Shown here in pieces: positions 21,413 through 53,641 of a stretch of DNA of 64,000 bases. The notes beneath the pieces were generated by a model. The model was not told the origin of the DNA and searched no databases. It saw only the letters and a list, made by a program, of their open reading frames with translations. Location of the stretch: the NCBI GenBank assembly GCA_016194635.1, contig JACQBC010000017.1:1-64000 (forward strand). The letters run 5' to 3'. Every line of letters begins with the position of its first letter. Positions within the stretch are counted from its first letter, which is position 1. This stretch comes from Gammaproteobacteria bacterium. Its GTDB lineage: Bacteria > Pseudomonadota > Gammaproteobacteria > UBA6429 > Thiohalophilaceae. The position numbers and the translations under genes were made by a program.

Positions 21413-21547
21413 TACTAACGAGGCACATGGAAAGGATACCCTCCAAACCAAGACACGCCGTCAATACATCCATGTAGGCTCGACAGCAGCATCCCTGCTG
21501 CTGACGGTCTTGGTTGGAGGGTATCCTTTCCATGTGCCCCAGTAATC
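21413..21547. repeat. Palindromic repeat, supplies the next start codon
   Basis: The left end TACTAACGAGGCACATGG and the right end CCATGTGCCCCAGTAATCA are complementary, as are the next stretches AAAGGATACCCTCC and GGAGGGTATCCTTT. The centre holds CGACAGCAGCATCCCTGC. Unlike other copies, the right end reads ATGTGCCCC and not ATGTGACTC, so the ATG opens a reading frame. Confidence 0.85.
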
Positions 21548-23900: not shown

Positions 23901-25075
23901 GGCCAGCACCTCAGGTGGCGATTAAGGGTTGGGCGTGGCGTACGCCCTTCGGTGCATCGATTGAACACGTCACGCGCCAATTGCTGGCCGGAGAACGCGC
24001 CGTGCGCAGCAACACACGGTTTGATGCCGCGAGTTACTTGTGCAGCGTCGCCTCGAGCATCGTGGAGGAACCCACACTTACCCGACAGCACCGCTTCTTA
24101 CGCCGGATGGGATTATTTGCCTTGGAAGTCGCACGCGAAGCGCTTCACTATTCTGGTATACCGGCGAGTGACAGGGTGGGTCTTTTTTTTGGTTACGGTG
24201 GCTTGCGTGCCCATTGGGACGACATGATGCCTGCCTTCGAGCATCAGCAATCCGATGGTGATGGCGCGTGGAAACGTGGCTTGAATCTATTGCATCCCTA
24301 CTGGATGTTGCAGCACCTGTCGAACAATGCCCATGCCTTAGCGGCAGAAGAATTGCGTGTACGGGGTGAGGGCGCGACCTTTGGTGGTGCCAATGCCGGT
24401 GCCCAAGCCTTAGCCGCCGCCATTCGTGCGCTGGAAGCCGGTGCGATTGATACTGCCGTGGTGGTGGGTTATGACTCGTTTATCGAACCGGAAACACTGG
24501 TTGATCTTGCCGCCAGGGGCATGTTGACGTTGCAGACGGAAGCTAACGTGGCAGCACCTTATGCGCAAACGGCGCAGGGTTTTGTGCCGGGTGAAGCGGC
24601 CGCCGCGTTAGTATTGCAACGCATAGGCAGTGGCGATGGGCGTGAGCTGGCGTATGTGCAAGCGGCCGATGGCGCGGACGGGGAAGCCGCTGCGCCAAGT
24701 CTCAATACGATCATGAATTTATTGGCGAACCTGGCGCAAGGCGCTACCCTCATCGATGGTGCCGGTTGGGCGCAACCCGCACAGGATAACGCGGAACGAA
24801 GTGCGTTAGCCAAATTTACAGGAGAAGAGGCGATGTTGTGTTGTACCATGAGTGCCATGGGACAACTCGGCGCAGCAGCGCCCCTGGTGCAGGCGATTGC
24901 GCTTGCTGAACAATTGCGTTTGCAAATGCTTGCGCCCATTGCGGGTTTACAGCAGGCGGCAGATGGCCCATTGCGACCATTAACATCGGCAACCCCAATT
25001 AACACACGTTCTGCACTGGCGATCTCGATGGGAACGCCAGGCTTGGCCGGTGCAATCAGGATCGACATGTCATGA
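23897..25075 (+). CDS. Ketosynthase-like protein without the catalytic triad (partner 2)
   Basis: The 392-residue protein follows the KS fold (VGLFFGYGGLRAHWDD, TAVVVGYDSFIEPETL, QGFVPGEAAAALVL) but has GGANAGAQAL (about 163-172) at the nucleophile and IDGAGWAQPAQD where HGTGT should stand; the second His is also absent. Like the gene at 21532 it is probably a non-catalytic subunit setting chain length. The cluster thus encodes two KS plus partner pairs in the order active, inactive, active, inactive. Confidence 0.8.
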   Translation: MRPAPQVAIKGWAWRTPFGASIEHVTRQLLAGERAVRSNTRFDAASYLCSVASSIVEEPTLTRQHRFLRRMGLFALEVAREALHYSGIPASDRVGLFFGYGGLRAHWDDMMPAFEHQQSDGDGAWKRGLNLLHPYWMLQHLSNNAHALAAEELRVRGEGATFGGANAGAQALAAAIRALEAGAIDTAVVVGYDSFIEPETLVDLAARGMLTLQTEANVAAPYAQTAQGFVPGEAAAALVLQRIGSGDGRELAYVQAADGADGEAAAPSLNTIMNLLANLAQGATLIDGAGWAQPAQDNAERSALAKFTGEEAMLCCTMSAMGQLGAAAPLVQAIALAEQLRLQMLAPIAGLQQAADGPLRPLTSATPINTRSALAISMGTPGLAGAIRIDMS

Positions 25076-25830
25076 ATACCGAAGTCAGTTCAACAATGCA
25101 AACCGCTTTAGTCACCGGTGGTTCGCGTGGCATAGGTGCTGCGATTGCCGTCGAACTGGCGGCGCGTGGGTTTAGGGTGGTCATCAATTACCGTAACAAT
25201 ACCGAAGCAGCCCAGACAGTGGCAAACACCATTGAACAAGCTGGTGGCCAAGCGTTATTGATCAAGGCCGATGTCTCCAAGCCGGACGATGTCAATACCA
25301 TGTTCGCTCAGCTCGACCGCGACGTGGGACACTTGGATGTCCTGGTCTGTAATGCCGGAGTAACTCGCGACACCTTGCTGGGCGCGAGCGAGCCTGACGA
25401 TTTCGATACGGTATTTGCGACGAATATTCATGGGGTCGTAAATTGTTGTCGTCAGGCGGCGAAACGTATGGCGAGTGCACGGTGCGGGGTGATCATTACT
25501 ATTTCTTCAGTCGCCGCGCAGCGGCCCGGTCGTGGGCAAAGCAATTATGCCGCGTCCAAAGGCGCGATCGAGGCCTTTACCAAGGCGTTAGCGGTTGAGT
25601 TAGCACCACGTGGCATTCGTGTTAATGCGGTAGCGCCCGGCGTGATCCTCACCGAGATGTCTGCCGACGTACGTGCAATGGCAGCGGAAGAAGTAACCAA
25701 GAAAATTTTGCTGAAACGCCCTGGCAACGCGCAGGAAGTTGCCAAGGTGGTCGGTTTTTTATGCAGTGACGAGGCGAGTTATGTGACGGCACAGGTGTGG
25801 AACGTGGACGGAGGATTTAAAGTTGAATGA
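25072..25830 (+). CDS. 3-ketoacyl-ACP reductase (FabG-like)
   Basis: The 252-residue SDR has TGGSRGIG near residue 15, CNAGVTRD, ISSVAAQRPG with the catalytic Ser, YAASKGAIEAF with Tyr and Lys, and the APGVILTEM and VWNVDGGF endings of FabG. It should reduce the beta-keto group with NADPH. It overlaps the preceding KS-like gene by four bases and the nitroreductase by eight. Confidence 0.9.
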   Translation: MNTEVSSTMQTALVTGGSRGIGAAIAVELAARGFRVVINYRNNTEAAQTVANTIEQAGGQALLIKADVSKPDDVNTMFAQLDRDVGHLDVLVCNAGVTRDTLLGASEPDDFDTVFATNIHGVVNCCRQAAKRMASARCGVIITISSVAAQRPGRGQSNYAASKGAIEAFTKALAVELAPRGIRVNAVAPGVILTEMSADVRAMAAEEVTKKILLKRPGNAQEVAKVVGFLCSDEASYVTAQVWNVDGGFKVE

Positions 25831-26470
25831 AGAATCGAGTTTAACTTGGTTGTTATCGCGGCGCAGTATTCGATCTTTTAAGGATCAAGCGATTCCGCGT
25901 GAGACACTGAACAATTTGATCGTGGCGGCGACCAGCGCACCGTCCAACACCAACCGACAGCCTTGGCGCTTTGCGGTGGTGAGTTCCCGCGAGATGCGCG
26001 CCAAGCTTGTCGACGCGGTGCGCACCCGGGCGAATCATATCAAGGAAATTATCCATCGCGGCCATCATGCCGAAGACTTTGGCAATTACGGTGATTTTTT
26101 CTATGAACCCTTACTCACGGCAGCGACGATCATCATTCCGCAGTACCGCAATTACCCTGATCTGATCGCCAACTTTCTTGCCTCCGGTGGTGTTGATCCC
26201 AAACAATTTCATACGGCCAGTGCGATGCAAGCCGAGTTGTGTTCGACCAGCGCGGCAGCGATGGTATTGTTGTTGCAGGCGCACGCCTCGGGCTTGGGTG
26301 CGTGTTGGATGGCAGGACCTATGGTGGCGCGGGACGATATCTGCGGTCTGTTGAACATTAGCCCACCTTGGAACATGGTTGGCGCGATTGCACTGGGCTA
26401 TCCCGCTGATCCGCCCCCGGCACAAAAGCCACGTAAGCCGGTCGATCACGTGGTGCAATGGTTTGATTAA
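25823..26470 (+). CDS. Nitroreductase-family flavoenzyme, TTG start
   Basis: The 215-residue protein starts with the family signature LSRRSIRSFKDQAIP and SAPSNTNRQPWRF, binding FMN, and ends with WNMVGAIALGYPAD. Members reduce or oxidise many substrates; in an acyl pathway it could act on an enoyl or similar intermediate, which is an inference. The start is TTG at 25823, supported by GGAGG nine bases upstream and by the absence of an in-frame ATG before the signature. It is the last gene of the first cluster block. Confidence 0.8.
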   Translation: MNEESSLTWLLSRRSIRSFKDQAIPRETLNNLIVAATSAPSNTNRQPWRFAVVSSREMRAKLVDAVRTRANHIKEIIHRGHHAEDFGNYGDFFYEPLLTAATIIIPQYRNYPDLIANFLASGGVDPKQFHTASAMQAELCSTSAAAMVLLLQAHASGLGACWMAGPMVARDDICGLLNISPPWNMVGAIALGYPADPPPAQKPRKPVDHVVQWFD

Positions 26471-32449: not shown

Positions 32450-32451
32450 TC

Positions 32452-34137: not shown

Positions 34138-34539
34138 ATGAATAGTGCCGTTGTCGAAACCAGCCTTGAGGACAGTGTGCGCCGCATTATTGCAGAGTCA
34201 CTGGCGATTGATGTCGCCAGGGTTGTGCCCAACGCCAGTTTGATGGAAAACTTGGGTGCCGAGTCGCTGGACTTTCTGGATATCGTCTTTAAACTTGAAC
34301 GGGCGTATAACATTCAAATTACCCGTGGCGAACTTGAACACGCCGCACGTGGTGACATGTCAGACGATGAATTTGCACCCAGCGGCATCATCTCCGCCGC
34401 CGGACTGATGCGTTTGCGGGAACTGATGCCCGAGGTAGCAGAACGTATTCAGCCTGGTTTGCGGCCAGCGCAAATACTGGGTTTGTTCACGGTACGCACC
34501 CTGGTGCATTTGGTGGCCCGTAAACAGCAACCTGCGTAA
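34138..34539 (+). CDS. Acyl carrier protein, long form
   Basis: The 133-residue protein contains an ACP helix bundle with Ser43 in NLGAESLDFLDIVFKLE, the site for the phosphopantetheine arm. Normal ACPs have about 80 residues; here a segment of about 45 residues (ARGDMSDDEFAPSGIISAAG) lies between helix II and the end. It is the only carrier in the window, so it should serve the cluster's ketosynthases, dehydratase and reductases. AAGGAG precedes the ATG. The restriction island separates it from the rest of the condensing genes. Confidence 0.88.
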   Translation: MNSAVVETSLEDSVRRIIAESLAIDVARVVPNASLMENLGAESLDFLDIVFKLERAYNIQITRGELEHAARGDMSDDEFAPSGIISAAGLMRLRELMPEVAERIQPGLRPAQILGLFTVRTLVHLVARKQQPA

Positions 34540-34633: not shown

Positions 34634-35770
34634 ATGAAAAACAGTGATCAAAATTCAACACAACTCCCTGCCCACGGCCGTGGTTGGATCGGCGGACCAG
34701 CCTTCGATCTGTTTTTTTTCTTTGGCAGCGGTGTCATCGCGCTCGCCGCAGGCTTGCTTGCATTGCAGTTCCCTGTGGTACTCGTGCCCTTGTGGTTGCT
34801 TTGGTTGTGGCTGGTGGAAGGGCCACATTTGATTGCGACCTGGCAGCGCACCTATATCGATCGGCAAAGCTGGCAGCAGCGATCCGGCTTGTTGCTGTGG
34901 AGTTTATTGTGGATGCTGCCAGGGCCGGTTCTATTATTCGCCTCGTGGATATTGGGGCGTCCTGAACCTTTTCTATTGTTTCTTGGTGTGGCCGTGGTAT
35001 GGTCATTTCATCACGGCATACGTCAGTACCATGGCTTGTTAGCCATTTATCAGCGCTTGAACGGCGCGGCGCGCAGTGCGAGTCGCATTGACAGTGTTTT
35101 TTTACACAGCATGATGTGGGTTTCATTTGTACTCTTTATGTTTCTTCATCCGGAAAACCGGCGTTTGCTGGGCCTGCCACTGACGATGGATATGTTTAGC
35201 AAGCTGATGGTTGCGTTACTGTCGGGGGCGCTGGTTGTTGGTGTAGTCGCATGGTTATGGGTCTTTGCGCAACGTTGTCAGCAAGGCGTTGGTCTGCGCC
35301 CCAGTTTCTTTGTGCTGGTGGCAGTGGGCGTCGCCTTGTTCGGTTTTTTTGTGATCGGTGTGCGCGAACCTATCCTGCCGTATCTGACCAGCACCGAGCA
35401 AATCTTCATGGCTGCGACCGTGATCGGTGGCACGGTACATGGCTTGCAATACCTGGGCATTAGCTTTGCCACGAGTGCGCGGCGGGCAGCGGCCGACACG
35501 GACTCAACCTCGCTCTCGGCACGCCTGGGGAAATCACCACTGCTGACTTACGGCATCATGGTGGCACTGTCCTTACTCTATCTTGGCTTAAATTTATTAC
35601 GTGGTGCGTCGCCCGTGGCATCGCCGGTTGTGCCGGGATCAAATACAGCCCAGGTATTTTTGGCGCTGTATTGGGGTTTGTTTTTCCATCACTATTGGAT
35701 CGATCAAAAAATTTGGCGGCCTTCGGCGGACAGCCGTTTGCGCGCTGAACTTGGCTTGAGTCCAGCATGA
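34634..35770 (+). CDS. Polytopic membrane protein with histidine clusters
   Basis: The 378-residue protein has nine or ten hydrophobic helices. Conserved-looking His-rich stretches lie at helix ends: SFHHGIRQYHG (about 133-143), GTVHGLQYLGI and FFHHYWIDQKIW near the C-terminus, which could bind a metal as in membrane oxygenases or hydroxylases. I do not recognise the family with certainty. Its place between the ACP and an aminotransferase, overlapping the latter by four bases, suggests work on a membrane-bound acyl intermediate. Confidence 0.6.
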   Translation: MKNSDQNSTQLPAHGRGWIGGPAFDLFFFFGSGVIALAAGLLALQFPVVLVPLWLLWLWLVEGPHLIATWQRTYIDRQSWQQRSGLLLWSLLWMLPGPVLLFASWILGRPEPFLLFLGVAVVWSFHHGIRQYHGLLAIYQRLNGAARSASRIDSVFLHSMMWVSFVLFMFLHPENRRLLGLPLTMDMFSKLMVALLSGALVVGVVAWLWVFAQRCQQGVGLRPSFFVLVAVGVALFGFFVIGVREPILPYLTSTEQIFMAATVIGGTVHGLQYLGISFATSARRAAADTDSTSLSARLGKSPLLTYGIMVALSLLYLGLNLLRGASPVASPVVPGSNTAQVFLALYWGLFFHHYWIDQKIWRPSADSRLRAELGLSPA

Positions 35771-37140
35771 CGGACAGCGAACATCCGATCACGGCCAGCT
35801 ATGCAAAGTACGTCAATCCCAGCTTCGTTAAATTGCTCGGCGTGTTGGGTTATGGCCGGGTGTTTAGCAAAGCACAGGATGTCTGGATCTGGGACAGCAC
35901 GGGCCGCCGTTATCTCGATTGCTTATCCGGTTTCGGCTCGGTCAATATCGGCCACAATCATCCCAAGCTGATTGCGCGTTTGCATCAACTGTTAGACGAG
36001 CAGCCTTACCATCTTTGTCATGTTGGCCCAGCTGCGGGGGCAGCGGCGCTCGGCGAAGCCTTGGCAAGACGTTTAGCGCCGCCGTTAGAGATCAGTTTGT
36101 TTGGCAGTTCAGGGGCGGAGGCCGTCGAGGCCGGATTGAAACTGGCGAGAGCCGCGACGCGGCGCACCGACATCGTCGCTTGCGAAGGCGCGTTTCATGG
36201 CATGAGTTTGGGCACGCTGTCCGTGGTGGGCAACAAACGCTTGTCCTTGCCGTTTGAACCTTTGTTGCCTGGGGTGCACCGCGTCCCGTTTGGCGATCTC
36301 ACTGCATTAGAACAGGTGTTACAGAAACATCGGCCCGCCGCTTTTTTGCTGGAGCCGCTGCAAGCAGAGGGCGGCATTGTCTTACCACCGCCTGACTATT
36401 TGCGCCAAGCACAACAATGTTGCACGGCGCATGGCACGTTACTGATCCTCGATGAGATTCAAACCGGCCTGGGTCGCACCGGCACACTGTTCGCGCATCA
36501 GGCAGAAGGCTTTGTGCCCGATGTACTCTGTCTGGCGAAGTCACTCTCCGGCGGCATCGCACCGGTGTCGGTCGCGGTGACCTCGCGCCACCTGTTCGAC
36601 AAGGCCTACGGAAAAATCGATCGTTTCGATTTACATAGTTCGACCTTTCAGGGGAATGCATTTTCCTGCGCCGCGGCAGTGCAGTCCTTGGACATCATCG
36701 ATGCAGAAAATCTGGCGGCGCGCAGTCACGCACGTGGCGCGCAATTGCTGGCAGGGTTGCAGCAACGTTTGCACGGGCATCCGTTGGTTAAGGATATCCG
36801 TGGTCGTGGTCTGCTGGTCGGTATTGAATTCGGCCCGACCGGCAGCGGTTGGCTGAACCGTCTTGCGCCAGGCATGGTGGAAAAATTAACGGAAGCCATG
36901 TTTGGGCAATGGGTGGCTGTCCGAATGCTGGAGGCGGGAATACTCTGTCAGCCGACATCGTCGCGTTGGGACGTGTTACGTCTGCAACCGCCGCTGACGA
37001 TCAGCGAAAATGAAATTGAATTTGTGATCGAGACCTTGGTTAAGGTGCTGGACGAGTACCAGGGTGTGGCACCGATTGTCGGCGACATCACGCGACGCGT
37101 TGGGTCGCAGTGGCGTAAGCATTGGCGGTTTCAATCATGA
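35767..37140 (+). CDS. Class III aminotransferase, first copy
   Basis: The 457-residue PLP enzyme has FGSSGAEAVEAGLKLARAAT, DEIQTGLGRTG from residue 229 and the Schiff-base Lys258 in CLAKSLSGG. Class III members transfer amino groups to aldehydes or ketones away from a carboxylate. Here it may aminate an acyl ketone or aldehyde made by the neighbouring transketolase halves. A late segment of about 50 residues (FGPTGSGWLNRLAPGMVEKLTEAM) exceeds ordinary ornithine-type enzymes. The end overlaps the transketolase reading frame. Confidence 0.88.
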   Translation: MTDSEHPITASYAKYVNPSFVKLLGVLGYGRVFSKAQDVWIWDSTGRRYLDCLSGFGSVNIGHNHPKLIARLHQLLDEQPYHLCHVGPAAGAAALGEALARRLAPPLEISLFGSSGAEAVEAGLKLARAATRRTDIVACEGAFHGMSLGTLSVVGNKRLSLPFEPLLPGVHRVPFGDLTALEQVLQKHRPAAFLLEPLQAEGGIVLPPPDYLRQAQQCCTAHGTLLILDEIQTGLGRTGTLFAHQAEGFVPDVLCLAKSLSGGIAPVSVAVTSRHLFDKAYGKIDRFDLHSSTFQGNAFSCAAAVQSLDIIDAENLAARSHARGAQLLAGLQQRLHGHPLVKDIRGRGLLVGIEFGPTGSGWLNRLAPGMVEKLTEAMFGQWVAVRMLEAGILCQPTSSRWDVLRLQPPLTISENEIEFVIETLVKVLDEYQGVAPIVGDITRRVGSQWRKHWRFQS

Positions 37141-38518: not shown

Positions 38519-38588
38519 TATGTTTTTGACATAGTTTGACGAAATGGTTGGGCTGGTCATGAGAAAACACCTGCTCAGATAAACGATC

Positions 38589-42678: not shown

Positions 42679-43725
42679 ATGACGAATGTAGCAAAACCAC
42701 CGGGCCTGCCTTTTTTTCAACAGGCAGCGCGTGACGTTCGGTTTCTGACGGGGCTGTTGCGCAAGAGGCCCTTCAATGTGTTAATCCAAGTCACTAACCG
42801 CTGCAATATGCGCTGTTCCTTTTGCGATTTTTGGTCGAATGGCGTGTCACCAAAATTGGAATTGAACGTCGCCGATTACCAGCGAATCGCCGCCGAGATG
42901 GCCACACTCGGCAGTTTTCTGGTGTCAGTGGAAGGGGGCGAACCGCTGCTGCGCCCGGACATCGTCGAGATTGTCCGTGCGTTTAGTGCGCGTCACGTGC
43001 CGGTGCTCTATACCAACGGCTGGTATGTGAATGAGAAAAAGGCGCGAGGGTTGTTTGAGGCGGGTATTGCGCAAGTCGGTGTCTCGATTGATTTCCCGGA
43101 TGCGCAGCGGCATGACACAAAACGGGGTTTAAAAGGCGGTTATGACCGTGCGTGGAAAGCCATTGACACTTTGCTCGCGCACGCGCCGCATGGCAGTGCA
43201 CAGGTGCATGTCATGACGGTATTGATGAAGGAAAATCAGCAGGACTTCGAGGCATTGTTAAAACTGAGCGCGGCACGGGGCGTGGGTCATTGTGTCACCT
43301 TGTTGTCTACCGATGGCTTCCGGCGCGGCAAAAGTAGCGATGACCAGATGCCTGATGCCGCACTCACACCGCGATTGCTCGATTTGTGGCAACGCTATCC
43401 CCACTTTCGGGCCTTCCGCCATTATTTAGAACACATGGATACGTTCATCACACGTGGCACCATGCCCACCTGCCACGCCGGAGAGCAATCGTTCAATATC
43501 GACCATGTTGGCAATGTCGCGCCCTGCATCGAACGCATCGACGCCATCGTCGGCAATGTGCGCGAGGCATCGCTGATCGATATCCTGGCTAATTTAAAAG
43601 GGTTAGCCTCCGTGGCAGCGTGTCAGGATTGCTGGACCTTATGCCGGGGCTTTTCCCAGGCACTCGGCCAGGGCGCGTCGGTGAAATCGTTGATCGATCT
43701 CAGCCGCCGCATGCGTTCATCATAA
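42679..43725 (+). CDS. Radical SAM enzyme with SPASM-like C-terminus
   Basis: The 348-residue protein has the radical SAM cluster motif RCNMRCSFCDFW (Cys42, Cys46, Cys49), VSVEGGEPLLRPD and the YTNGWYV strand. The C-terminal part has Cys residues in TCHAGEQSF, NVAPCIER and CQDCWTLC, which suggests one or two extra iron-sulphur clusters. The layout resembles HpnH-like and SPASM enzymes; the substrate is unknown. It starts a new transcription block behind the decayed toxin-antitoxin module; the RBS is weak (GGAG ten bases upstream). Confidence 0.85.
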   Translation: MTNVAKPPGLPFFQQAARDVRFLTGLLRKRPFNVLIQVTNRCNMRCSFCDFWSNGVSPKLELNVADYQRIAAEMATLGSFLVSVEGGEPLLRPDIVEIVRAFSARHVPVLYTNGWYVNEKKARGLFEAGIAQVGVSIDFPDAQRHDTKRGLKGGYDRAWKAIDTLLAHAPHGSAQVHVMTVLMKENQQDFEALLKLSAARGVGHCVTLLSTDGFRRGKSSDDQMPDAALTPRLLDLWQRYPHFRAFRHYLEHMDTFITRGTMPTCHAGEQSFNIDHVGNVAPCIERIDAIVGNVREASLIDILANLKGLASVAACQDCWTLCRGFSQALGQGASVKSLIDLSRRMRSS

Positions 43726-43743
43726 TGAAGATTATTGTTATAG

Positions 43744-43874: not shown

Positions 43875-43890
43875 CATAAAGAGGTGGTTC

Positions 43891-44658
43891 GTGAATTTAA
43901 CTGAGGCTGTTGCCCCGCCGTTACGTCTATTCGGTAAACGTTGCCTGGTCACGGGTGGCTCACGCAAACTCGGTCGTGAGTTGTGCGTGGCCTTTGCCAA
44001 GGCCGGTGCCAAGGTGGCGTTCACGTATCACAAACAAGATGCGGATGCGGAAGTGACTCGACAACTGCTGCAACAGGCCGGTGCCGAGGTATTGGTCTTC
44101 AAGGGTTCAGTCACCGATGCGGACCATGCACGTGCGACGGTCAATGACATTGTCAAGGCCTGGGGCGGCCTGGATGTACTCGTCAACAATGCCGGTGTCA
44201 TGCAGATCCTGCCCGTGGCATTATTGGAGGAAGCCGATTGGGATAAGGTGATCGATACCAACCTGAAAGGCGCGTACATTTTTTCACGTGAAGTACTGCG
44301 CCCCATGTTACGCGCCAAGAAGGGCCACATTCTGAATATTGGTTCGATTGCCGGTGAGCGGATTGTCGAAGCGCCGATTCACTATGCAGCGGCCAAGGCG
44401 GGCTTGCAAGGCTTGACGCGAGCCTTGGCAAGGGAAGTCGGGCGCTTTGGGATCGCGGTCAACGATTTGTCCGCCGGTCTGCTTGCCGCCGGACTGGGAC
44501 AGCAAGCGCTGCAACACCACCGCGATGAATACATTAAAAATTGTCCGCTGGGACGATTAGGCACATTGGAAGAACTGGCCGCATTTGCCACCTGGCTGGT
44601 GTCGGATGAAAACAGCTTCATGAGCGGTGCGCGGCTGGCCTTTGACGGCGGTCTGTGA
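43891..44658 (+). CDS. SDR-family reductase (FabG-like), GTG start
   Basis: The 255-residue protein has VTGGSRKLGRELC, NNAGVMQ, NIGSIAGERI with the catalytic Ser, and YAAAKAGLQGL. It ends with GARLAFDGGL as FabG-type SDRs do. A GTG start at 43891 follows GAGGTGG by three to four bases. It is closely similar in style to the SDR at 49441. It may reduce a keto group introduced by the pathway. Its TGA overlaps the aminotransferase start. Confidence 0.85.
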   Translation: MNLTEAVAPPLRLFGKRCLVTGGSRKLGRELCVAFAKAGAKVAFTYHKQDADAEVTRQLLQQAGAEVLVFKGSVTDADHARATVNDIVKAWGGLDVLVNNAGVMQILPVALLEEADWDKVIDTNLKGAYIFSREVLRPMLRAKKGHILNIGSIAGERIVEAPIHYAAAKAGLQGLTRALAREVGRFGIAVNDLSAGLLAAGLGQQALQHHRDEYIKNCPLGRLGTLEELAAFATWLVSDENSFMSGARLAFDGGL

Positions 44659-45956
44659 TGGAGGCCTTTCTGCAACAAGGTTACGACGATTTCCGTACGT
44701 TCATTAATCCGTGGGTGGCGGCGCGTGCCGAATTCAGTGGCGAACCCTTTCACATGGTGTCGACACGCAATGGTTGCTTGGTTGACGCCGATGATCGCGT
44801 GTACCGTGATTTTCTGGCAGGGTGGGGTACACAACTGTTTGGTCATCGTCCTGCGGCGATTGAACAGGCCCTGCGCGCCTACTTGGATGGAACGACACCG
44901 TCGTTTTACACCTCGGGGGTGAGTCCCTATGCAGGACAACTGGGAAAACGCCTGCATGACAGAACCGGTTACGATGCCGCGTATTTTGCGAGCGGTGGCG
45001 CGGAAGCGGTAGAGGCCGCGATGAAACTGGCACGTGCCGCCATCGGCCGACCACGCATTGCCTATGTCGAAGGGGCCTACCACGGTTGCACCTACGGCAG
45101 CGTGGCGATGATGCACCACGGTCCGTATCGCGACAGCTTTGGGCCGCACTTGCCGCAAGTTGATGTGCTGCCGTTTAACGATCTGGCCGCGTTGGACACG
45201 GTATTGGCCGATCCACACTTGGCAGCAATCGTAGTCGAGCCGATACAAGTCGAGTCCGGTGTGCGTATGCATTCGGAACATTATTTACAACGCCTGTGCA
45301 AGGGCACCGCCACGCAAGGTCCCTTGTTGATTGCAGATGAGATCCAAACCGGATTGGGACGCACAGGTCAGTTTCTACGTAGCGAGACCTGGCCGCGCCA
45401 ACCGGACGTGATCACCCTGGCCAAGGCCTTGGGCGGTGGTTTGATACCGTTGTCAGCGATGCTCACGCGCCGCGATATTTTTGATCGGGCGTATGGCAAT
45501 TTTGCGCTGGCGGAAGCGCACGCGTCCACGTTCAGCGGCAATGCACTTGCCTGTGTGGCGGGGTTGGCAACACTGGAGCAGTTGAATGATACCGTTGTTG
45601 CCTCGGTGCGGAACAAAGGTGAGCTGTTTCGCGAGCGATTGCAGCAAGCGGTAGGATCGTCACCGCTGGTATCCGCCATTCACGGCAGCGGCCTATTGTG
45701 GGGCATTGAGTTACAGGCCCCGGATCACCCGTATTTTTCTTTCGATTATCTTGGCCTGCCAGAGTTAAGCGGACAACCTGCCATTGGGCTAATGGTCATG
45801 CATCAACTTTACAAGGCAGGTTACCTCACCCAAGTGTGTGGACATGCCTGGCACGTACTGCGCTTGCAGCCACCACTGACCACCAGTGATGCTGAATTGG
45901 CGGCGTTTGCACAGGCCTTGGCGCACGCATTGGATACCTTATGGAAATTGCAATGA
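44658..45956 (+). CDS. Class III aminotransferase, second copy
   Basis: The 432-residue PLP enzyme has FASGGAEAVEAAMKLARAA, DEIQTGLGRTGQF from residue 227 and Lys256 in ITLAKALGGG. It is clearly diverged from the copy at 35767, so two different amination steps, or two subunits, are likely. GGAGG lies only within the gene start, and translation is probably coupled to the SDR upstream (TGATG). Confidence 0.88.
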   Translation: MEAFLQQGYDDFRTFINPWVAARAEFSGEPFHMVSTRNGCLVDADDRVYRDFLAGWGTQLFGHRPAAIEQALRAYLDGTTPSFYTSGVSPYAGQLGKRLHDRTGYDAAYFASGGAEAVEAAMKLARAAIGRPRIAYVEGAYHGCTYGSVAMMHHGPYRDSFGPHLPQVDVLPFNDLAALDTVLADPHLAAIVVEPIQVESGVRMHSEHYLQRLCKGTATQGPLLIADEIQTGLGRTGQFLRSETWPRQPDVITLAKALGGGLIPLSAMLTRRDIFDRAYGNFALAEAHASTFSGNALACVAGLATLEQLNDTVVASVRNKGELFRERLQQAVGSSPLVSAIHGSGLLWGIELQAPDHPYFSFDYLGLPELSGQPAIGLMVMHQLYKAGYLTQVCGHAWHVLRLQPPLTTSDAELAAFAQALAHALDTLWKLQ

Positions 45957-46041
45957 CGACAAACAACACCTTCAGTAAATTCCATAACCGGTTGCAATGC
46001 GCCACATCGTTCATGGTGATTATTTATTTGCGAGGCCGGAC

Positions 46042-46743
46042 ATGACACAAGTGCTCATCATCGGTGGCAGCGGCGCTCTGGGTACCGCGTTGCTAAAAGA
46101 AATCCGTAAGGCAGGCGTAGCGGTTGCGTTTACCTATTGCCAAAATACAGAACGCGCCACGGCATTGAGTCGCGAGTATGATAGCCCGTCTTATGGCGTG
46201 GACCTGCGGAACGTGGACGCTGTTGATGGCTTGTTTGATACCCTAGCACAAGCGGGACAACTGCCAAACGTTGTCATCCATTGTGCTGGTGTGGCACCTG
46301 CGACGCTGCTGGACGACATCACCGCAACAATGTGGGATGAGTTACATGCGATCCATGGGCGAACCGCGTTACTGTGTGCGCAGCAAATGGCGCGGCGTAA
46401 CTTGCGTGGTGCATTGATTTTGGTTGCGGCCTTGGACGGCGTGTACCCGGTGCCGGCACCGGCGCATTATGCTGCGAGTCAAGCCGCCCTGTGGGGATTA
46501 ACCCAGGCCTTGGCCAAGGAATTGGGGCCGCGTGGTATTTTGGTAAATCTGGCGGTGGTCGGTGTGCTCGATGGCGGCATCGCTCACGCATTGGTACCCA
46601 AATTACGTGAGGCCTATCGGCGTCATGCCGCGCTTGCTCGCACCGGAACCTGTGAAGAGGCGGCGCGTGGTTTGCGCTGGCTGGCCTTGGAAAATACCTA
46701 TCTGAACGGTGCGCAGTTTCCCTTGACCGGAGGTTTGGGTTGA
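46042..46743 (+). CDS. SDR-fold protein with Gln in place of the catalytic Lys
   Basis: From ATG 46042 the 233-residue protein has the cofactor loop IIGGSGALGTALL and CAGVAP, but the active site reads HYAASQAALWG, with YxxxQ and not YxxxK, and VAALDG instead of a Ser-bearing strand. A normal SDR reaction is therefore unlikely; it could bind NAD(P) structurally or form a heteromer with another SDR of the cluster. GAGG precedes the start by seven bases. Confidence 0.75.
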   Translation: MTQVLIIGGSGALGTALLKEIRKAGVAVAFTYCQNTERATALSREYDSPSYGVDLRNVDAVDGLFDTLAQAGQLPNVVIHCAGVAPATLLDDITATMWDELHAIHGRTALLCAQQMARRNLRGALILVAALDGVYPVPAPAHYAASQAALWGLTQALAKELGPRGILVNLAVVGVLDGGIAHALVPKLREAYRRHAALARTGTCEEAARGLRWLALENTYLNGAQFPLTGGLG

Positions 46744-47288
46744 AGCGTTTGATGGGTGTGGTCCTGCTGGTATTATTGATTTGCCATGCGCTGCTGAAGG
46801 CGCAAGTCGGCATGTTGGCGGAAATGTTATGGACCTCGCACGTGACATCGGGTTTGTTAGCCGTTGGATTGATCTTCGATCTGCCGGTATTGATGGCCAT
46901 CGGATTTTTATTTCATCTCGCGGTCGCCACACCCGCTTATATATTGTTGCTGCTTGGTCACGGCGACACCAACTGGACGTCGTTTTTGTTGCATGGTTTG
47001 ACACCCCTTGCCGGTTGGATAGCCTGGCGTAAACTACCGTTGCCCACCCCAACGTGGTGGCAGGCATGGCTGGTCTGTTTTCTATTAGTGATCCTCTGTC
47101 GGGTGTTTACACTCGAGCAACTGAATATCAACCTTGCCTTTAAGTCGTGGGAGTCAGCGCCTTTTTTAGGGAACTGGTTTAACTACACCGCCGTGTTACT
47201 ATTGATTTTACCGCAGATGGCGGTGGTCCAATGGTTGTTTAATCGGTTCACCTTATCCGCAGGTCGCGAAAGGATGGGTTTGCACTAG
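46740..47288 (+). CDS. Small polytopic membrane protein, TTG start
   Basis: The 182-residue protein has five or six hydrophobic helices (MGVVLLVLLICHALL, HVTSGLLAVGLIFDLPVLMAIGFLFHLAVATPAYILL, AWLVCFLLVIL, YTAVLLLILPQMAVVQ). I do not recognise the family. TTG at 46740 overlaps the stop of the SDR and has GGAGG five bases upstream, so coupled translation fits. It may hold an enzyme complex at the membrane or handle the lipid product. Confidence 0.6.
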   Translation: MKRLMGVVLLVLLICHALLKAQVGMLAEMLWTSHVTSGLLAVGLIFDLPVLMAIGFLFHLAVATPAYILLLLGHGDTNWTSFLLHGLTPLAGWIAWRKLPLPTPTWWQAWLVCFLLVILCRVFTLEQLNINLAFKSWESAPFLGNWFNYTAVLLLILPQMAVVQWLFNRFTLSAGRERMGLH

Positions 47289-47632: not shown

Positions 47633-49441
47633 ATGGAATGTACCAGCTGCAACACCTCCCCGCTGCGCCAGGATCGGCCCCACACCTTTTTCATGCATGA
47701 AATGGCTGTGTGTGCTGCCTGCTCCTCCACCGTCGAATCGCGGGTCGTGTTACGGGACGGTGGTGTCGTGCGATTAATCCATTGCGCGCAGTGCGGGCCG
47801 TCAGAGCAGCCCGTTGCTGACGATGCAGATGCCTATGTAAAAGCCTTCCTCGCACGCGCCGAGCTCGTCCCAGGCAAGGGCGGCGATCACTATTTTAAAC
47901 AGACGACATCCACCTGTCCCAGCTGTCTGGCACTCCTCCCGGCACAGGTAATCATTCGCGATGACAAAGTATTTTTTCTCAAGGATTGTGAAAAATGTGG
48001 TCCGTCCGAAGCGCTGGTGTCCGAAAACGCGCAGTATTACGTGGATGCCTACTCCTATGCCCGTGCCGGTACTGAACCGATAAAGTTCGCGACCGAGGCC
48101 AAGGCGGGTTGTCCGACCGACTGTGGCACCTGCGGCGACCATGAACAACACACCTGTCTGCCTATCATCGAAATCACCGACTATTGCAATCTGGAGTGCC
48201 CGATCTGTATCGTCAACAACCAGAATGCAAACCATCTTTCCAATGAAGCCTTTGCCAAGATGATCGACCGCTTGGTCGAAAACGAAGGTCAGTGCGAATC
48301 GATCGCCTTGTCCGGTGGCGAGCCGACCAGTCATCCGCGCATTCTTGAATTGATCGACATCGCTACCCGTGAGGAGATTGGCCGCATCGTGGTGATCACC
48401 AACGGTTTGCGTCTTGGTAAAGATCGGAAATTCGCCGAGCAACTCAAGGCCAAAGGCGCGTATGTCGCCTTGCAGTTCGACGGTTTCACCGCCGACACGC
48501 ATGAACGAATTCGTGGCCGCGATCTGTGCGAGGAAAAATCCGCTGCCTTACGAATGTTAAAGGAATTGGCTATTCCGACGCAGCTCATTTTCGTCGCGGC
48601 GCGTGGCATCAATGAACATCAAATCGGGCAAATCGTTGACATGTTTTTGTCCGAAGATCATTTCCTGTCTTTGAATTTTCAACCAGCGGCCTTTACCGGT
48701 TATGGCGGCGGCCAATTTGCGCACGACCCGATGGATAGGATCACCATTCCTGGCGTGATCAAGGCCATCGAGGAGCAAACCCAGGGCCGTCTCAAGATCA
48801 GCGATTTTGCACCACTGCCTTGCTCGCACCCGCAATGCGTTTCATTAACTTATTTGTTACGACTCAATGATGGCAGCCATTTGCCGTTTGGACGTTTTGT
48901 CGATTTCAAAAAACACGGGGCCTTGCTACGCTCATCGGCAACGCTCGGTGCCTCGCCTGAGATACATGAGGTCATGCAGGATGTGATTCACGATGTGTTT
49001 GCCCATCAAGATGAGATCCCCCGTGCCGCTGAGATCCTTGCGGCGTTACGGCGGACGATTGATGTGATGTTCCCGGATCGCCCGGTCTCCCCGAAAGAGG
49101 CGATTAAACTGGGTGAACTGCAAGCGAAGTCGATTTTTTTGCATCACTACATGGATCGTCACGATTTTGATCTGGAACGTCTGCGGAAATGTTGTCACCA
49201 CTATCCGCAAGTTGATGGCCGCATTATGCCGGCCTGCGGTTTCAATATGTTTCATCGCGGCGCAGCCAAAGGCCCCGACACACCGCTCGCGGATTGGGGA
49301 AAGAAACCCTGGACTACCGATGTGCCCGTGGCCGTGGTCCAATTCTCGCGCACCGATACTCGACAAGCCTTAACCGGCATAGCCGCTGACGAAAGCCTGG
49401 CCCGGCCACCCCATTTGCTGGGCATGACGGGGAAAGACTGA
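47633..49441 (+). CDS. Tes-like radical SAM enzyme, first copy
   Basis: The 602-residue protein resembles archaeal tetraether lipid synthase and its relatives. Two N-terminal zinc-ribbon or rubredoxin-like knuckles (CAAC...CAQCG and CPSC...CEKCG, to about 122) precede CPTDCGTCGDHEQHTC (160-175), the radical SAM motif DYCNLECPIC (Cys185, Cys189, Cys192) and LSGGEPTSHP. Later CSHPQCVSLTYLL and CCHHYPQVDG...CGF may bind further clusters. Tes joins the methyl ends of two lipid chains by radical chemistry. The same kind of reaction is inferred here. AAGGAG precedes the ATG. Confidence 0.82.
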   Translation: MECTSCNTSPLRQDRPHTFFMHEMAVCAACSSTVESRVVLRDGGVVRLIHCAQCGPSEQPVADDADAYVKAFLARAELVPGKGGDHYFKQTTSTCPSCLALLPAQVIIRDDKVFFLKDCEKCGPSEALVSENAQYYVDAYSYARAGTEPIKFATEAKAGCPTDCGTCGDHEQHTCLPIIEITDYCNLECPICIVNNQNANHLSNEAFAKMIDRLVENEGQCESIALSGGEPTSHPRILELIDIATREEIGRIVVITNGLRLGKDRKFAEQLKAKGAYVALQFDGFTADTHERIRGRDLCEEKSAALRMLKELAIPTQLIFVAARGINEHQIGQIVDMFLSEDHFLSLNFQPAAFTGYGGGQFAHDPMDRITIPGVIKAIEEQTQGRLKISDFAPLPCSHPQCVSLTYLLRLNDGSHLPFGRFVDFKKHGALLRSSATLGASPEIHEVMQDVIHDVFAHQDEIPRAAEILAALRRTIDVMFPDRPVSPKEAIKLGELQAKSIFLHHYMDRHDFDLERLRKCCHHYPQVDGRIMPACGFNMFHRGAAKGPDTPLADWGKKPWTTDVPVAVVQFSRTDTRQALTGIAADESLARPPHLLGMTGKD

Positions 49442-50181
49442 TGGGTTTGCTCGACGGACGTACCGCCTTGGTGACCGGTGGCTCGCGTGGACTGGGCCGC
49501 GCCATTTGCATGGTCTTGGCACGCGAAGGTGCGAATGTCGCCTTCAACTATGCACGCTCGACGGTCGAGGCCGCTGAACTATTGGAAGCGCTCCAGCAAT
49601 TTGGTGTCAAGGCCTGGGCCTTTCAGGTCTCGGTGCTCGACAAAAAAGGCTTGAATACCATGGTGCGCGAGATCGAACAAGCCGCCGGTTCGATCGACAT
49701 CCTGATCAACAATGCCGGCATTGGCCAAGTGGTGCCGCTGGCCTTGATGGAAGAAGAAGACTGGGATCGCATGATGAACATCAACGTCAAAGGCGCATTC
49801 CTGACAACCCAGGCAGTCATGCGTGGCATGATCCATCAGAAGCGCGGCCGGATCTTGAATATCAGTTCGCTGGCAGGCGTGAAGATGATGCAAGCACCGG
49901 TACACTACAGCACCGCCAAAGCCGCGTTGAAGGGATTTACCGAGGCCCTGGCCAAGGAGATCGGTCGTTATGGCATTACCGTCAATTGCCTGGCCCCTGG
50001 TGTATTGGATGAAGGTGTCAGTGGCAACCTGCCGCCGGTGAAACTAGACGAATACATTCGCAATTGCGCGATGGGGCGCTTGGGCAGAGTCGAAGAAATT
50101 GCTGAAGCGACGGCGCTGTTTGTCTCCGACAGAAACAGTTATATGAACGGTGCCACGGTTGTTATCGACGGTGCGGTCTAG
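49441..50181 (+). CDS. 3-ketoacyl-ACP reductase (FabG-like)
   Basis: The 246-residue SDR has VTGGSRGLGRAIC, NNAGIGQ, ISSLAGVKMM with Ser, YSTAKAALKGF with Tyr and Lys, and GATVVIDGA near the end. The full catalytic set suggests an active reductase. It starts on the last base of the Tes-like gene and ends 37 bases before the second one, so it lies within the radical SAM operon. Confidence 0.88.
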   Translation: MGLLDGRTALVTGGSRGLGRAICMVLAREGANVAFNYARSTVEAAELLEALQQFGVKAWAFQVSVLDKKGLNTMVREIEQAAGSIDILINNAGIGQVVPLALMEEEDWDRMMNINVKGAFLTTQAVMRGMIHQKRGRILNISSLAGVKMMQAPVHYSTAKAALKGFTEALAKEIGRYGITVNCLAPGVLDEGVSGNLPPVKLDEYIRNCAMGRLGRVEEIAEATALFVSDRNSYMNGATVVIDGAV

Positions 50182-50218
50182 TTTCTTTCCTTATATAAAA
50201 TCTGCCGAGATAAAATCA

Positions 50219-51688
50219 ATGAGCGATAGTTTGGTCAACGCGACGACGAGTTTATGTGCCACCTGCAAGCGCAGTGTCGACGCCGAGTTGTGGCGTACCC
50301 AGGACACGATTGTCATGCGCAAGCACTGCCCGGAACACGGCCAGCAAGAAGTGTTGATCTCATCGAATGCAGATTGGTATAACAAGATGATGCAGCAGCC
50401 ACCGGTGCTCACTGCGCCTGTCGCCACGCGAGCAGTCGCGCAAGGTTGCCCGTTTGATTGCGGCCCGTGTACCAAGCACGAGCAACAAGTCCTGTTGCCA
50501 ATCGTGCCCATCACCTCGGCCTGCAACCTCGACTGTCCCATTTGTTATACGCATAATCGCAACAGCAATGCCTTCCACATGTCCGAGGCGGAGTTGCGTG
50601 CCATTCTCGGACATATCCGCAAGGCCGATCCGCAGCAACGCATCATCAACCTGACCGGTGGCGAGCCCACGCAACATCCGGACTTTGTGCGTTTGGTCGA
50701 ACTCTGCCATGAAGAGGGCATCCATCGCATTACCGTCTCCACCCACGGCCTGCGATTTCTAAAAGACGAATGGTTACTGGAAAAACTGGCTAAGATCCAG
50801 GCGCGCATTGTCTTGTCGTTTGATTCGTTTAAACCGGGGGCGAACATCGAGATGCTGGGCGGCAATTTCTACGAAGGAAAAATGCGGGTGCTGGCCATGT
50901 TGGAGAAGCACGGCGTCGATACCACCTTGTTGCCGGTGCTTGCCCGTGGCAGCAATGATGACGAGGTGGGCCACTTCGTCCAACTTGGGTTAGAAAAAGA
51001 GTTTATTCGCAGTGTAGAGTTGCACACAATGACCTTCACCGGCCAAGGCGGTTCGCAGTTTAAACGCAGCGGTCGCTACACGACCTATGATGTGCTCGCC
51101 GATCTTGAAACCCAGACCCAGGGCGCACTGCGCATTACTGATTTCGTCTCCTCCCCGTCTGCCCATGCGATGTGTTATCTGGTCACATATTTACTGCGGC
51201 TGGATAGCGGGCGCTGGCTTCCGTTCCCCCGTTTCATGGACCCTGCCGATCTGCGCAGCCTGTTAACCGGCTCACTGTACCTGGAGCCCTCACCGGCCGT
51301 CGAACAAAAGCTGCAAGACGTGATCAATCGAATCTGGACGGGCGAGATCACTTGTCCGGATGCGGACGAAGTACTATCAACGCTGAAGGGTTTACTGTCG
51401 CGAATGTTTTCGCCTGACCTGACTGCCGCCCAGCGGATGCGCGTTGGCGAGTTGAGTTCAAAAGCGGTCTATGTCCATTCACACATGGATGAAGAGACCT
51501 TTGATACTGATCGTGTGCGTCAGTGTTGCGTCGGCATTCGCGAACCGGATGGCAGCAATATACCCTCATGTTCCTATAATGTGATTTACCGTAACCGCGA
51601 TACGCGGTTTAATTCTACCCCCGCAGAGCCGCCAGCATCGCTCGGCAAGGGACGTATCTGGCCGATCCATGCTGTTATAGGGAAATAA
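50219..51688 (+). CDS. Tes-like radical SAM enzyme, second copy
   Basis: From ATG 50219 the 489-residue protein has one N-terminal knuckle (CATC...HCPEHG, 13-41), GCPFDCGPCTKHEQ (76-89), the radical SAM motif ACNLDCPICYTHN (Cys102, Cys106, Cys109) and LTGGEPTQHP. The C-terminal part keeps MTFTGQGGSQFKRSGRYT and CCVGIREPDG. It lacks the doubled knuckle of the first copy and has SAHAMCYL where that has CSHPQCVSL, so one cluster site differs. The two may work in sequence or as a pair on lipid chains. Confidence 0.82.
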   Translation: MSDSLVNATTSLCATCKRSVDAELWRTQDTIVMRKHCPEHGQQEVLISSNADWYNKMMQQPPVLTAPVATRAVAQGCPFDCGPCTKHEQQVLLPIVPITSACNLDCPICYTHNRNSNAFHMSEAELRAILGHIRKADPQQRIINLTGGEPTQHPDFVRLVELCHEEGIHRITVSTHGLRFLKDEWLLEKLAKIQARIVLSFDSFKPGANIEMLGGNFYEGKMRVLAMLEKHGVDTTLLPVLARGSNDDEVGHFVQLGLEKEFIRSVELHTMTFTGQGGSQFKRSGRYTTYDVLADLETQTQGALRITDFVSSPSAHAMCYLVTYLLRLDSGRWLPFPRFMDPADLRSLLTGSLYLEPSPAVEQKLQDVINRIWTGEITCPDADEVLSTLKGLLSRMFSPDLTAAQRMRVGELSSKAVYVHSHMDEETFDTDRVRQCCVGIREPDGSNIPSCSYNVIYRNRDTRFNSTPAEPPASLGKGRIWPIHAVIGK

Positions 51689-51755: not shown

Positions 51756-52835
51756 ATGGAATGGATCTTACTCTTGGCCGTATTTTTCCTGGCGTTTAGT
51801 AACGGCGCAAACGATAATTTCAAGGGATTTGCCACCGTCTGGGGTTCAAATGTTCTGAATTACCGGCAGGCGCTGACGTTGGCAACCTTGGCAACAGTGG
51901 CGGGTTGTATCGCCGCACTGTTTCTGGCCAATGAACTCGTGCAACATTTTTCAGGAAAAGGTCTGGTAGAGGAGGCGGTGCTGGGTTCACCCCTTTTTCT
52001 GCTGAGCGTCGCTTGCAGTGCAGCGCTGACAATTTTTCTCGCCACGCGACTGAGCTTTCCGGTTTCCACTACGCATGCACTGATTGGTGGCTTGATCGGT
52101 GCTGGGCTAGCGCAAAGCGATAGTGGTGTGCATTTCGATAAATTAATTCAAACCTTCTTCGCCCCGCTATTCATTAGCCCTCTGTTGGCAGCTGTGTTGG
52201 GTGCTTTGGTGTATTCGCTATTCCGCATGCGTAGCCCCACGGTCGATTGTGTCTGTGTCAGCCAGTCAGAGTCACTTGTTGCAAAGGATGCAAACGCAAT
52301 AGCAATGCAGAGTTCATCGTCACCGGTGTTAGTGATAGGGGAAAGTAAGGATTGTGACTCCATGCCTGTGATAGTTGGTTTCTCTATCTCTCCTAGGTTG
52401 GATAAACTTCACATTTTTTCAGCGATGGCCATCTGTTTTGCGCGTGGTCTCAACGACACACCAAAAATTGCGGCGATTCTGATTACTTCCAGCATGATCA
52501 ATACACGGCTCTCGTTATCATTAATTACGCTAGCAGTTGCACTAGGTGGATTGGGATTTTCAAAACGTGTTGCTGAACGCATGAGTTATCGAGTGACGCG
52601 CATGGATCATGGTCAGGGGTTGGCCGCTAATTTTATTACCGCGCTAGTGGTGCTCTATGCCAGTACATTGGGCGTACCGGTTTCTACCACCCACGTTTCG
52701 ATTGGTTCCATTGCGGGTGTCGGTATGCGTGCTAGCACACTGGGTTGGGCGAGTTTGTCGCAAATCATATTGGCTTGGTTGGCAACATTGCCTGTTGCTG
52801 CCGCATTCGCTTGGATAATTAGCAAGCTGGCTTAA
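51756..52835 (+). CDS. PiT-family phosphate (or anion) transporter
   Basis: The 359-residue membrane protein has the duplicated PiT signature: FSNGANDNFKGFATVWGS near residue 14 and FARGLNDTPKIAAIL in the second half, plus FPVSTTHALIGGL and VPVSTTHVSIGSI. PiT proteins import phosphate with H+ or Na+. The central loop with Cys-Val-Cys is short. It follows the second Tes-like gene by 67 bases; whether it serves the pathway or is a bystander is open. Confidence 0.9.
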   Translation: MEWILLLAVFFLAFSNGANDNFKGFATVWGSNVLNYRQALTLATLATVAGCIAALFLANELVQHFSGKGLVEEAVLGSPLFLLSVACSAALTIFLATRLSFPVSTTHALIGGLIGAGLAQSDSGVHFDKLIQTFFAPLFISPLLAAVLGALVYSLFRMRSPTVDCVCVSQSESLVAKDANAIAMQSSSSPVLVIGESKDCDSMPVIVGFSISPRLDKLHIFSAMAICFARGLNDTPKIAAILITSSMINTRLSLSLITLAVALGGLGFSKRVAERMSYRVTRMDHGQGLAANFITALVVLYASTLGVPVSTTHVSIGSIAGVGMRASTLGWASLSQIILAWLATLPVAAAFAWIISKLA

Positions 52836-53641
52836 TAACGCCTTGTTGATGTACGCAGCATGTTCGATACCAATGTTTCGCTAGGTAATAGTGGAATCAC
52901 CTTGCGCGTGATTACGGTTGCGGCGGCACCATCTTCGAGTTCCAAACAGAGCGCTGCTATATGATTGGCGGATGGACGCCACTGCCAAAACCACCAACGT
53001 GACGACAAGTCGTCAAACGCGGTCTCAAACTCGATACGAATCTGCTGGTCAACATCCAGATTAAAGCTAAATTGATCCAAGGGAATCGTTAAACCCATTC
53101 CGCGTGCCTTGATATAGCTCTCTTTTAGTGTCCACAGTTCAAAGAAGCGCTGCGACAGCAAGGCGGCGGGCAATCGATGTAAGGCCGCGATTTCTCGCGG
53201 CGAAAAATAACTATTCGCGATCTGCATTGGCGCTGAACGTGTCAGGTTCTCGGTGTCGACCCCCAGGGCCCGGTCGCGCGTGATACTCAATATGATCAAA
53301 CCGTCAGAATGAGAAATGTTGAACGAGATTAGTTTTGAAATAACATTGTCATTCGCAATTGTCGGCCGTCCATACGCGTTCTGTTCAAATCGCCAGTCTT
53401 GCGGGGAAATGGCTTCGTAGCGAGAGAGTACATCGCGTACCAAGGCGCGCGTCACGAGAAAACGATGACGATCGTTGGGAAAGTAGAAACGTGCTTCCTG
53501 CTCTAATTCTTGCGCTGTTAAAAGGCGACGGTATGAAGCAACCAGATTTTCGTCGTAGGTTTCATCGACATAGACAAGCCACACATCAACTTGCTCGCGT
53601 GAAAGCGCCAGAAACTGCTTGTTATCTATTGGTAGTTCCAT
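52832..53641 (-). CDS. Sfp-type 4'-phosphopantetheinyl transferase
   Basis: The 269-residue protein has FNISHSDGL (107-115), the Mg-binding GVDTE (127-131) and FELWTLKESYIKARGMGL (167-184), the full motif set of the Sfp/Gsp group. It should activate the cluster's acyl carrier protein on Ser43. It is on the opposite strand and overlaps the end of the transporter gene by four bases, marking the right border of the cluster. Confidence 0.93.
   Translation of the reverse strand: MELPIDNKQFLALSREQVDVWLVYVDETYDENLVASYRRLLTAQELEQEARFYFPNDRHRFLVTRALVRDVLSRYEAISPQDWRFEQNAYGRPTIANDNVISKLISFNISHSDGLIILSITRDRALGVDTENLTRSAPMQIANSYFSPREIAALHRLPAALLSQRFFELWTLKESYIKARGMGLTIPLDQFSFNLDVDQQIRIEFETAFDDLSSRWWFWQWRPSANHIAALCLELEDGAAATVITRKVIPLLPSETLVSNMLRTSTRRY

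Follow-up and report, generated by a model that had tools for sequence, protein, structure and literature searches.

Genes at the locus

The window analyzed here is a stretch of 64,000 nucleotides (positions 1 to 64,000 of contig JACQBC010000017.1, assembly GCA_016194635.1, from a Gammaproteobacteria bacterium). It contains two genes for diverged relatives of Tes, the radical S-adenosylmethionine (SAM) protein of Methanocaldococcus jannaschii also named GDGT-MAS, which in archaea joins the ends of lipid chains by sp3 C–C coupling. The two genes flank a FabG-like gene, and all three open reading frames were found where a preliminary description of this DNA had placed them.

47633..49441, + strand: Tes1, Tes-like radical SAM protein of 602 amino acids, with two tandem rubredoxin-like domains, a [4Fe4S]N site, a radical SAM core and a C-terminal cluster domain
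49441..50181, + strand: FabG3, FabG-like reductase of the short-chain dehydrogenase/reductase (SDR) family, directly downstream of Tes1 and overlapping it
50219..51688, + strand: Tes2, Tes-like radical SAM protein of 489 amino acids from its likely ATG, with one rubredoxin-like domain

The TGA of Tes1 overlaps the ATG of FabG3 (ACTGATGGGT). The Tes2 frame is listed from a GTG at 50150, while the ATG at 50219 gives a protein starting MSDSLV..TTSLC; this is the likelier start because the Massilia orthologs begin MSDELV..TTSLC.

Tes1 and Tes2 share 36% identity across 461 amino acids (E 4e-94, far above chance), the HMPTM/Tes N-terminal zinc-ribbon domain is present in both, and the best PDB match of each is 7tol, the M. 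jannaschii GDGT-MAS/Tes (E 1.5e-63 for Tes1 and 2.3e-57 for Tes2). They are old, diverged paralogs and both are Tes-like, in agreement with the preliminary description, which had seen in them diverged copies sharing core motifs. The best NCBIfam matches of both proteins were TrsS and then Tes, with 279.1 and 270.8 bits for Tes1 and 236.4 and 236.3 bits for Tes2. These scores are far under the curated equivalog cut-offs (490 bits for TrsS, 450 bits for Tes), so that membership in either family was ruled out.

The AlphaFold models, with pLDDT values of 82.9 for Tes1 and 87.2 for Tes2, had 7tom as their top match in VIA-align (Tes1: Z 47.9, 443 residues aligned, 2.8 Å; Tes2: Z 47.2, 438 residues aligned, 2.8 Å), and the next fold was for both that of MoaA, with Z 19–20. 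The full-length Tes fold was thus found in both models, the first domain of the Tes1 model falling outside the range aligned to 7tom.

Metal-ligand positions

According to the published account of M. jannaschii Tes (PMC9433317), the enzyme holds its rubredoxin iron by C9, C12, C33 and H36 and its [4Fe4S]N cluster by C73, C77, C80 and a histidine, contains the radical SAM CX3CX2C motif and a C-terminal cluster with the labile Met439, and binds three [4Fe4S] clusters. These positions were followed in a family alignment of 23 Tes1 and 17 Tes2 sequences, with a third group, Tes2b, of 10 sequences; His83 was taken as the [4Fe4S]N histidine, and the cysteines of the C-terminal cluster (C338, C455 or C456, C470) were assigned by conservation. 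The corresponding sites of Tes1 are as follows.

48110..48142, + strand: [4Fe4S]N ligands C160, C164, C167 and H170
48185..48208, + strand: radical SAM CX3CX2C motif, C185, C189 and C192
48821..48838, + strand: CSHPQC, with the extra C397 (Ser333 in M. jannaschii Tes) and C402 (C338 in M. jannaschii Tes, presumed cluster ligand)
49142..49240, + strand: His504 (in place of the labile Met439), C520/C521, Tyr524 (M. jannaschii Tyr459) and C535 (M. jannaschii C470)

In Tes2 the sites are C13, C16, C37 and H40 (rubredoxin-like), C77, C81, C84 and H87 ([4Fe4S]N), C102, C106 and C109 (radical SAM cluster), and C319, H420, C436/C437 and C451 in the C-terminal part. Cysteine is kept in 23/23 Tes1 and 17/17 Tes2 at the positions of M. 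jannaschii C9, C12, C33, C73, C77, C80, C98, C102, C105, C338, C455 and C470, as is histidine at that of H83; the position of C456 is Pro in two of the 17 Tes2. The ligands of the rubredoxin iron, of [4Fe4S]N, of the radical SAM cluster and, as far as conservation assigns them, of the C-terminal cluster are thus present in both groups. The alignment, together with the predicted structures, shows that no metal-ligand position of M. jannaschii Tes is lost from either protein and that both have its overall fold.

The preliminary description had pointed out, rightly, that Tes1 has CSHPQCVSL where Tes2 has SAHAMCYL, and had taken this for the loss of a likely cluster ligand in Tes2. C397, with which CSHPQC begins, aligns with Ser333 of M. 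jannaschii Tes. Its position is Cys in all 23 Tes1 and in 7 of the 10 Tes2b, and in Tes2 it is Ser (7 sequences), Leu (6), Ala (2), Val (1) or Cys (1). The differing cysteine is therefore not a lost Tes ligand, since Tes itself has a serine there, and the family alignment is of the kind that had been named beforehand as refuting the loss. A Tes2 deprived of a ligand that Tes1 keeps, and so with a different electron donor or a missing cluster, could appeal to the invariance of C397 in Tes1 against the Ser of Tes2 in the window, and to the Cys that TrsS-like relatives show a few residues upstream of their lost C338 position. It is nevertheless very improbable, because M. jannaschii Tes binds all three [4Fe4S] clusters with Ser333 (PMC9433317), because 17/17 Tes2 keep C338 and every other Tes ligand, and because the position drifts (Cys in 7/10 Tes2b and 1/17 Tes2). 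Ligand loss in Tes2 was accordingly rejected.

Another reading places the peculiarity in Tes1: C397, or His504, may bind the C-terminal cluster, either as a further ligand or in place of another one, in which case Tes1, and not Tes2, would have the unusual cluster and would hold the radical unlike archaeal Tes. It would agree with the invariance of C397 and H504 in 23/23 Tes1, with the replacement of Met439 by His also in all Tes2 and Tes2b, and with the TrsS-like proteins, which lose M. jannaschii C338 but have a Cys few residues upstream. As the His is common to Tes2, it cannot alone explain the difference between Tes1 and Tes2, and this reading seems rather doubtful.

The N-terminal part of Tes1 accounts for the other difference noted beforehand, two knuckles in Tes1 versus one in Tes2, which was borne out.

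47684..47872, + strand: extra N-terminal rubredoxin/zinc-ribbon-like domain of Tes1 (C27, C30, C51, C54), tandem duplicate of the next domain
47888..48079, + strand: second rubredoxin-like domain of Tes1 (C95, C98, C119, C122), matching M. jannaschii C9, C12, C33 and H36 with His36 replaced by Cys

Residues 19–80 and 87–149 of Tes1 are a tandem duplicate, with a local alignment score of 108 against a mean of 22 and a maximum of 43 in 500 shuffles, and the model repeats twice a unit of four strands and a helix. The His36 position is Cys in 21/23 Tes1. The extra N-terminal domain is lacking in L030 and L031, which branch deepest among Tes1, so it is probably a gain within Tes1, where it would probably serve as an added electron-entry or structural module. 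The direction of change is thus the reverse of that supposed beforehand, with a Cys fixed in Tes1 and variable in Tes2, and a knuckle gained by Tes1.

Active-site differences

All Tes1, Tes2 and Tes2b have His at the Met439 position, and Tyr459 is kept in 23/23 Tes1, replaced by Ile, Met or Val in Tes2, and by Asn (once Val) in Tes2b; the combination of Met439 and Tyr459 is therefore found in none of the three groups. Both residues are given as invariant in 1000 archaeal Tes, and Tes is described as active in the Y459F, Y459L and M439A forms (PMC9433317). Since these variants still work, the changes do not exclude coupling. The contacts of Tes with 5′-deoxyadenosine, R210, Q268 and S271, are Arg, Gln and Ala or Ser in Tes1, and Leu, His and Thr in 17/17 Tes2. 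With two defining features of Tes tested and not found (Met439/Tyr459 and the NCBIfam cut-off), the pair is filed as Tes-like and not as Tes.

The rubredoxin duplicate, the 5′-deoxyadenosine contacts and Tyr459 are better-founded differences between the two proteins than the cysteine, and they suggest different reactions. Tes1, whose active site is most like that of Tes (R210, Q268 and Tyr459 kept), would be the likelier coupling enzyme of the pair, while Tes2, with changed adenosine contacts and Tyr459 gone, probably has another substrate or another site of action, or forms a second bond. The different reaction that had been suggested for Tes2 is thus plausible by way of these residues and of the separate conserved clades, and not by way of ligand loss.

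Less probably, the Tes-like enzymes do not couple at all, and the product chain of the surrounding gene cluster is instead desaturated, cyclised, methylated or thiolated by them. A single radical SAM fold supports many reactions, MJ0619 was once placed in a methylase class (PMC9433317), and the altered 5′-deoxyadenosine contacts and absent Tyr459 of Tes2 would fit. Against it stands the conservation of the full Tes auxiliary-site set. This set includes the C-terminal cluster, on which the substrate radical is believed to reside and some of whose cysteines are absent from the TrsS-like relatives.

Distribution and phylogeny

A protein scan found relatives of Tes1 in 26 loci, with 52–82% identity, in Massilia, Polyangium, Sorangium, other myxobacterial and "Deltaproteobacteria" bins, and Betaproteobacterium GR16-43. 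The search for Tes2 in 25 Tes1 genomes gave a match in 25/25, some matches being Tes1 itself, and a Tes2-type gene (at least 46% identity to Tes2 of the window) was present in 22 of the 25, often on the same contig. The cluster is conserved in Massilia, in Polyangiaceae and in further bacteria, where it usually encodes two or three Tes paralogs. The third, Tes2b (about 43–49% identity to Tes2), occurs in many related clusters (L012, L024, L034, L081, L096, L101 and others), has mostly Asn at the Tyr459 position and usually has FabG2 directly after it.

In the tree, Tes1 forms a single clade (100/99), as do all the Tes2-type proteins (100/99); their split predates the spread of the cluster among Massilia, Polyangiaceae and other bacteria. 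Most mapped regions have Tes1 followed by FabG3 and a Tes2-type gene followed by FabG2. FabG2 and FabG3 are sister groups with moderate support (SH-aLRT 88, in a quick tree of cluster SDRs only), which together with the Tes–SDR pairing fits a duplication of the pair; it looks like an old duplicated unit. The arrangement of two Tes-like genes around a FabG gene, noted beforehand, is correct as an order and partly an accident of it, as FabG3 goes with Tes1 while Tes2-type genes elsewhere go with FabG2.

Among 190 genomes of relatives of the host, Tes1 or Tes2 was found in none, and TrsS-like homologs in six. In the tree, the proteins of the window and of Massilia fall next to those of a Sorangium bin, within a set of sequences that is mostly myxobacterial, several other rows being flagged as long-branch. 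The simplest reading is horizontal acquisition. The host assembly yielded no 16S gene. Plasmid and viral collections gave distant Tes or radical SAM homologs only. The TrsS-like proteins of other members of the host class (L036–L041) are without two of the Tes C-terminal-cluster cysteines, and the L036 gene has an in-frame TGA, possibly for selenocysteine.

The surrounding gene cluster

The Tes pair lies within a fatty-acid/polyketide cluster of about 35 kb, which includes two pairs of ketosynthase and chain-length factor (KS/CLF), a dehydratase, a ketoreductase, an acyl carrier protein (ACP), a nitroreductase, two PigE-like aminotransferases and a SPASM radical SAM enzyme.

19733..20200, + strand: FabZ-like dehydratase
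20197..21408, + strand: KS1, ketosynthase, C-H-H residues complete by inspection
21514..22617, + strand: KS2, chain-length-factor-like, active-site Cys absent by inspection
22614..23900, + strand: KS3, ketosynthase, C-H-H complete by inspection (start at 22614 inferred, frame listed from 22467)
23897..25075, + strand: KS4, chain-length-factor-like, active-site Cys absent by inspection
25072..25830, + strand: FabG1, ketoreductase
25823..26470, + strand: nitroreductase-family flavoprotein
34138..34539, + strand: acyl carrier protein
34634..35770, + strand: membrane protein, family unassigned, conserved in the cluster
35767..37140, + strand: AT1, class III aminotransferase similar to the aminotransferase domain of PigE (419 bits, under the cut-off)
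42679..43725, + strand: rSAM0, radical SAM/SPASM protein
43891..44658, + strand: FabG2, SDR, following Tes2-type genes in other genomes
44655..45956, + strand: AT2, class III aminotransferase, PigE-like
45997..46743, + strand: SDR3, SDR-family protein
46740..47288, + strand: small membrane protein, conserved in the cluster
52832..53641, − strand: 4′-phosphopantetheinyl transferase

The components of a polyene-type type II polyketide synthase (PKS), namely KS/CLF pairs, ketoreductase, dehydratase and ACP, were all found by Pfam and NCBIfam matches, with the Cys of KS1 and KS3 read from the sequence. The common set near Tes1 relatives consists of FabZ, KS1–KS4, FabG1, the nitroreductase, ACP, AT1, rSAM0, FabG2, AT2, SDR3, the two membrane proteins, Tes1, FabG3 and Tes2. 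The 4′-phosphopantetheinyl transferase could load the cluster ACP; no homolog of it was seen within 10 kb in related loci. A literature search on such clusters (Massilia, myxobacteria, type II polyketide, ladderane, bola-lipid) found no description, most subscription papers lying outside its coverage.

The gene content also bears on whether the pair might use phospholipid tails as substrates, as bacterial synthases of membrane-spanning lipids such as branched glycerol dialkyl glycerol tetraethers (brGDGT) or diabolic-acid lipids. Zeng et al. 2022 suggested such a role for bacterial Tes homologs (PMC8941075), and the Tes fold binds lipids. This role appears unlikely here, as the KS/CLF pairs, ACP and aminotransferases of the cluster are unneeded for coupling ordinary phospholipid tails. 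Massilia and Polyangium are not known to produce brGDGT.

Concerning other features of the region, a set of type I restriction-modification genes that includes one for a PrrC-like anticodon nuclease (HsdR, S-like, PrrC and HsdM, 26656–34092) splits the nitroreductase from the ACP gene; the two adjoin in Massilia. A dispersed repeat of about 100–140 bp lies between cluster genes (21446–21546, 26461–26598, 38383–38521, 43738–43877 and 56722–56822); it resembles a small mobile element in that one end is a reversed match of the other, and one copy compared with the whole genome found 51 matches, of which at least 40 cover most of the copy. Between 37064 and 42056, the cluster contains a transketolase split into N and C subunits, a protein similar to alkylglycerol monooxygenase and fatty-acid hydroxylase, and a small unassigned protein. 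A direct repeat of 79 nt (86%) at 38025–38103 and 39027–39105, where the transketolase N gene ends and the C gene begins, flanks about 0.9 kb of inserted sequence. The split transketolase and the fatty-acid hydroxylase (37–42 kb) were dropped as core genes because transketolase homologs were not found in related clusters.

Proposed function

Tes1 and Tes2 are paralogous bacterial members of the Tes fold family, encoded in a dedicated type II fatty-acid/polyketide cluster. We interpret them, by analogy with Tes and with a probability of roughly one half, as enzymes that would form C–C bonds by a Tes-type radical reaction, their substrate being the acyl or polyene chain that the cluster would produce. 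The KS/CLF pairs, ketoreductase, dehydratase and ACP would build the long acyl or polyene chain, to which the PigE-like aminotransferases would add amino groups. Each Tes-like enzyme would then activate a C–H of this chain with a 5′-deoxyadenosyl radical, the carbon radical would be parked, as in Tes, on the C-terminal [4Fe4S] cluster, and a C–C bond would be formed tail to tail or within one chain, and the partner SDR would reduce a nearby carbonyl.

Several observations weigh against this interpretation: the His found at the Met439 position in all groups, the scores of Tes1 (271 bits) and Tes2 (236 bits) under the 450 bits required for Tes, the reliance of the core gene order on a home-made gene caller and BLAST instead of curated annotation, and the lack of recognised glycerol-ether or head-group genes in the conserved core. 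By this last observation, ordinary tetraether lipid synthesis is not indicated.

As a tentative extension, and on the whole a doubtful one, the cluster may represent an uncharacterised, widespread bacterial pathway in which duplicated Tes–SDR units make at least two radical C–C bonds on acyl or polyene chains bearing amino groups, so that two-headed (bola-type) or multiply cyclised amino lipids would result. Bacterial Tes homologs are already known, none with confirmed function (PMC8941075, PMC11868695). If this extension is true, Tes-type sp3 coupling would serve bacterial specialised metabolism, beyond membrane lipid synthesis. That two or three Tes-like genes stand together with the presumed source of their chains, in a single compact and conserved cluster found in culturable strains of Massilia and Polyangium, makes a bacterial Tes function directly testable, and the natural variation in the adenosine pocket and at the Met439 and Tyr459 positions is material for studying sp3 C–C bond formation by Tes.

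Comparison with known systems

Tes1 and Tes2 resemble Tes/GDGT-MAS (MJ0619; 7tol, 7tom; NF045702) in the whole fold, the rubredoxin-like domain, the His-liganded [4Fe4S]N, the radical SAM core, the C-terminal cluster domain and all Cys ligands. They differ from it in the His for Met439, the scores under the cut-off and the context of a bacterial type II fatty acid synthase/PKS; Tes1 also in its extra rubredoxin domain and all-Cys rubredoxin site, and Tes2 in its changed 5′-deoxyadenosine contacts and the absence of Tyr459. TrsS (radical SAM (seleno)protein, NF045646) is the best NCBIfam match by score and has the same domain order, but both proteins stay under its 490 bits, and the TrsS-like L036–L041, without M. 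jannaschii C338 and C470, form a separate clade. AT1 (419 bits) and AT2 (308 bits) are similar to the class III aminotransferase domain of PigE (prodigiosin-pathway aminotransferase, NF053554), although they are without the fused reductase domain and under the 850-bit cut-off, and the prodigiosin pathway was not recognised nearby. Finally, the cluster of the window shares with highly reducing (polyene-type) type II PKS the two KS/CLF pairs, ketoreductase, dehydratase and ACP, whereas clusters of the present kind additionally encode two or three enzymes similar to Tes, along with a SPASM radical SAM protein and a pair of PigE-like aminotransferases.

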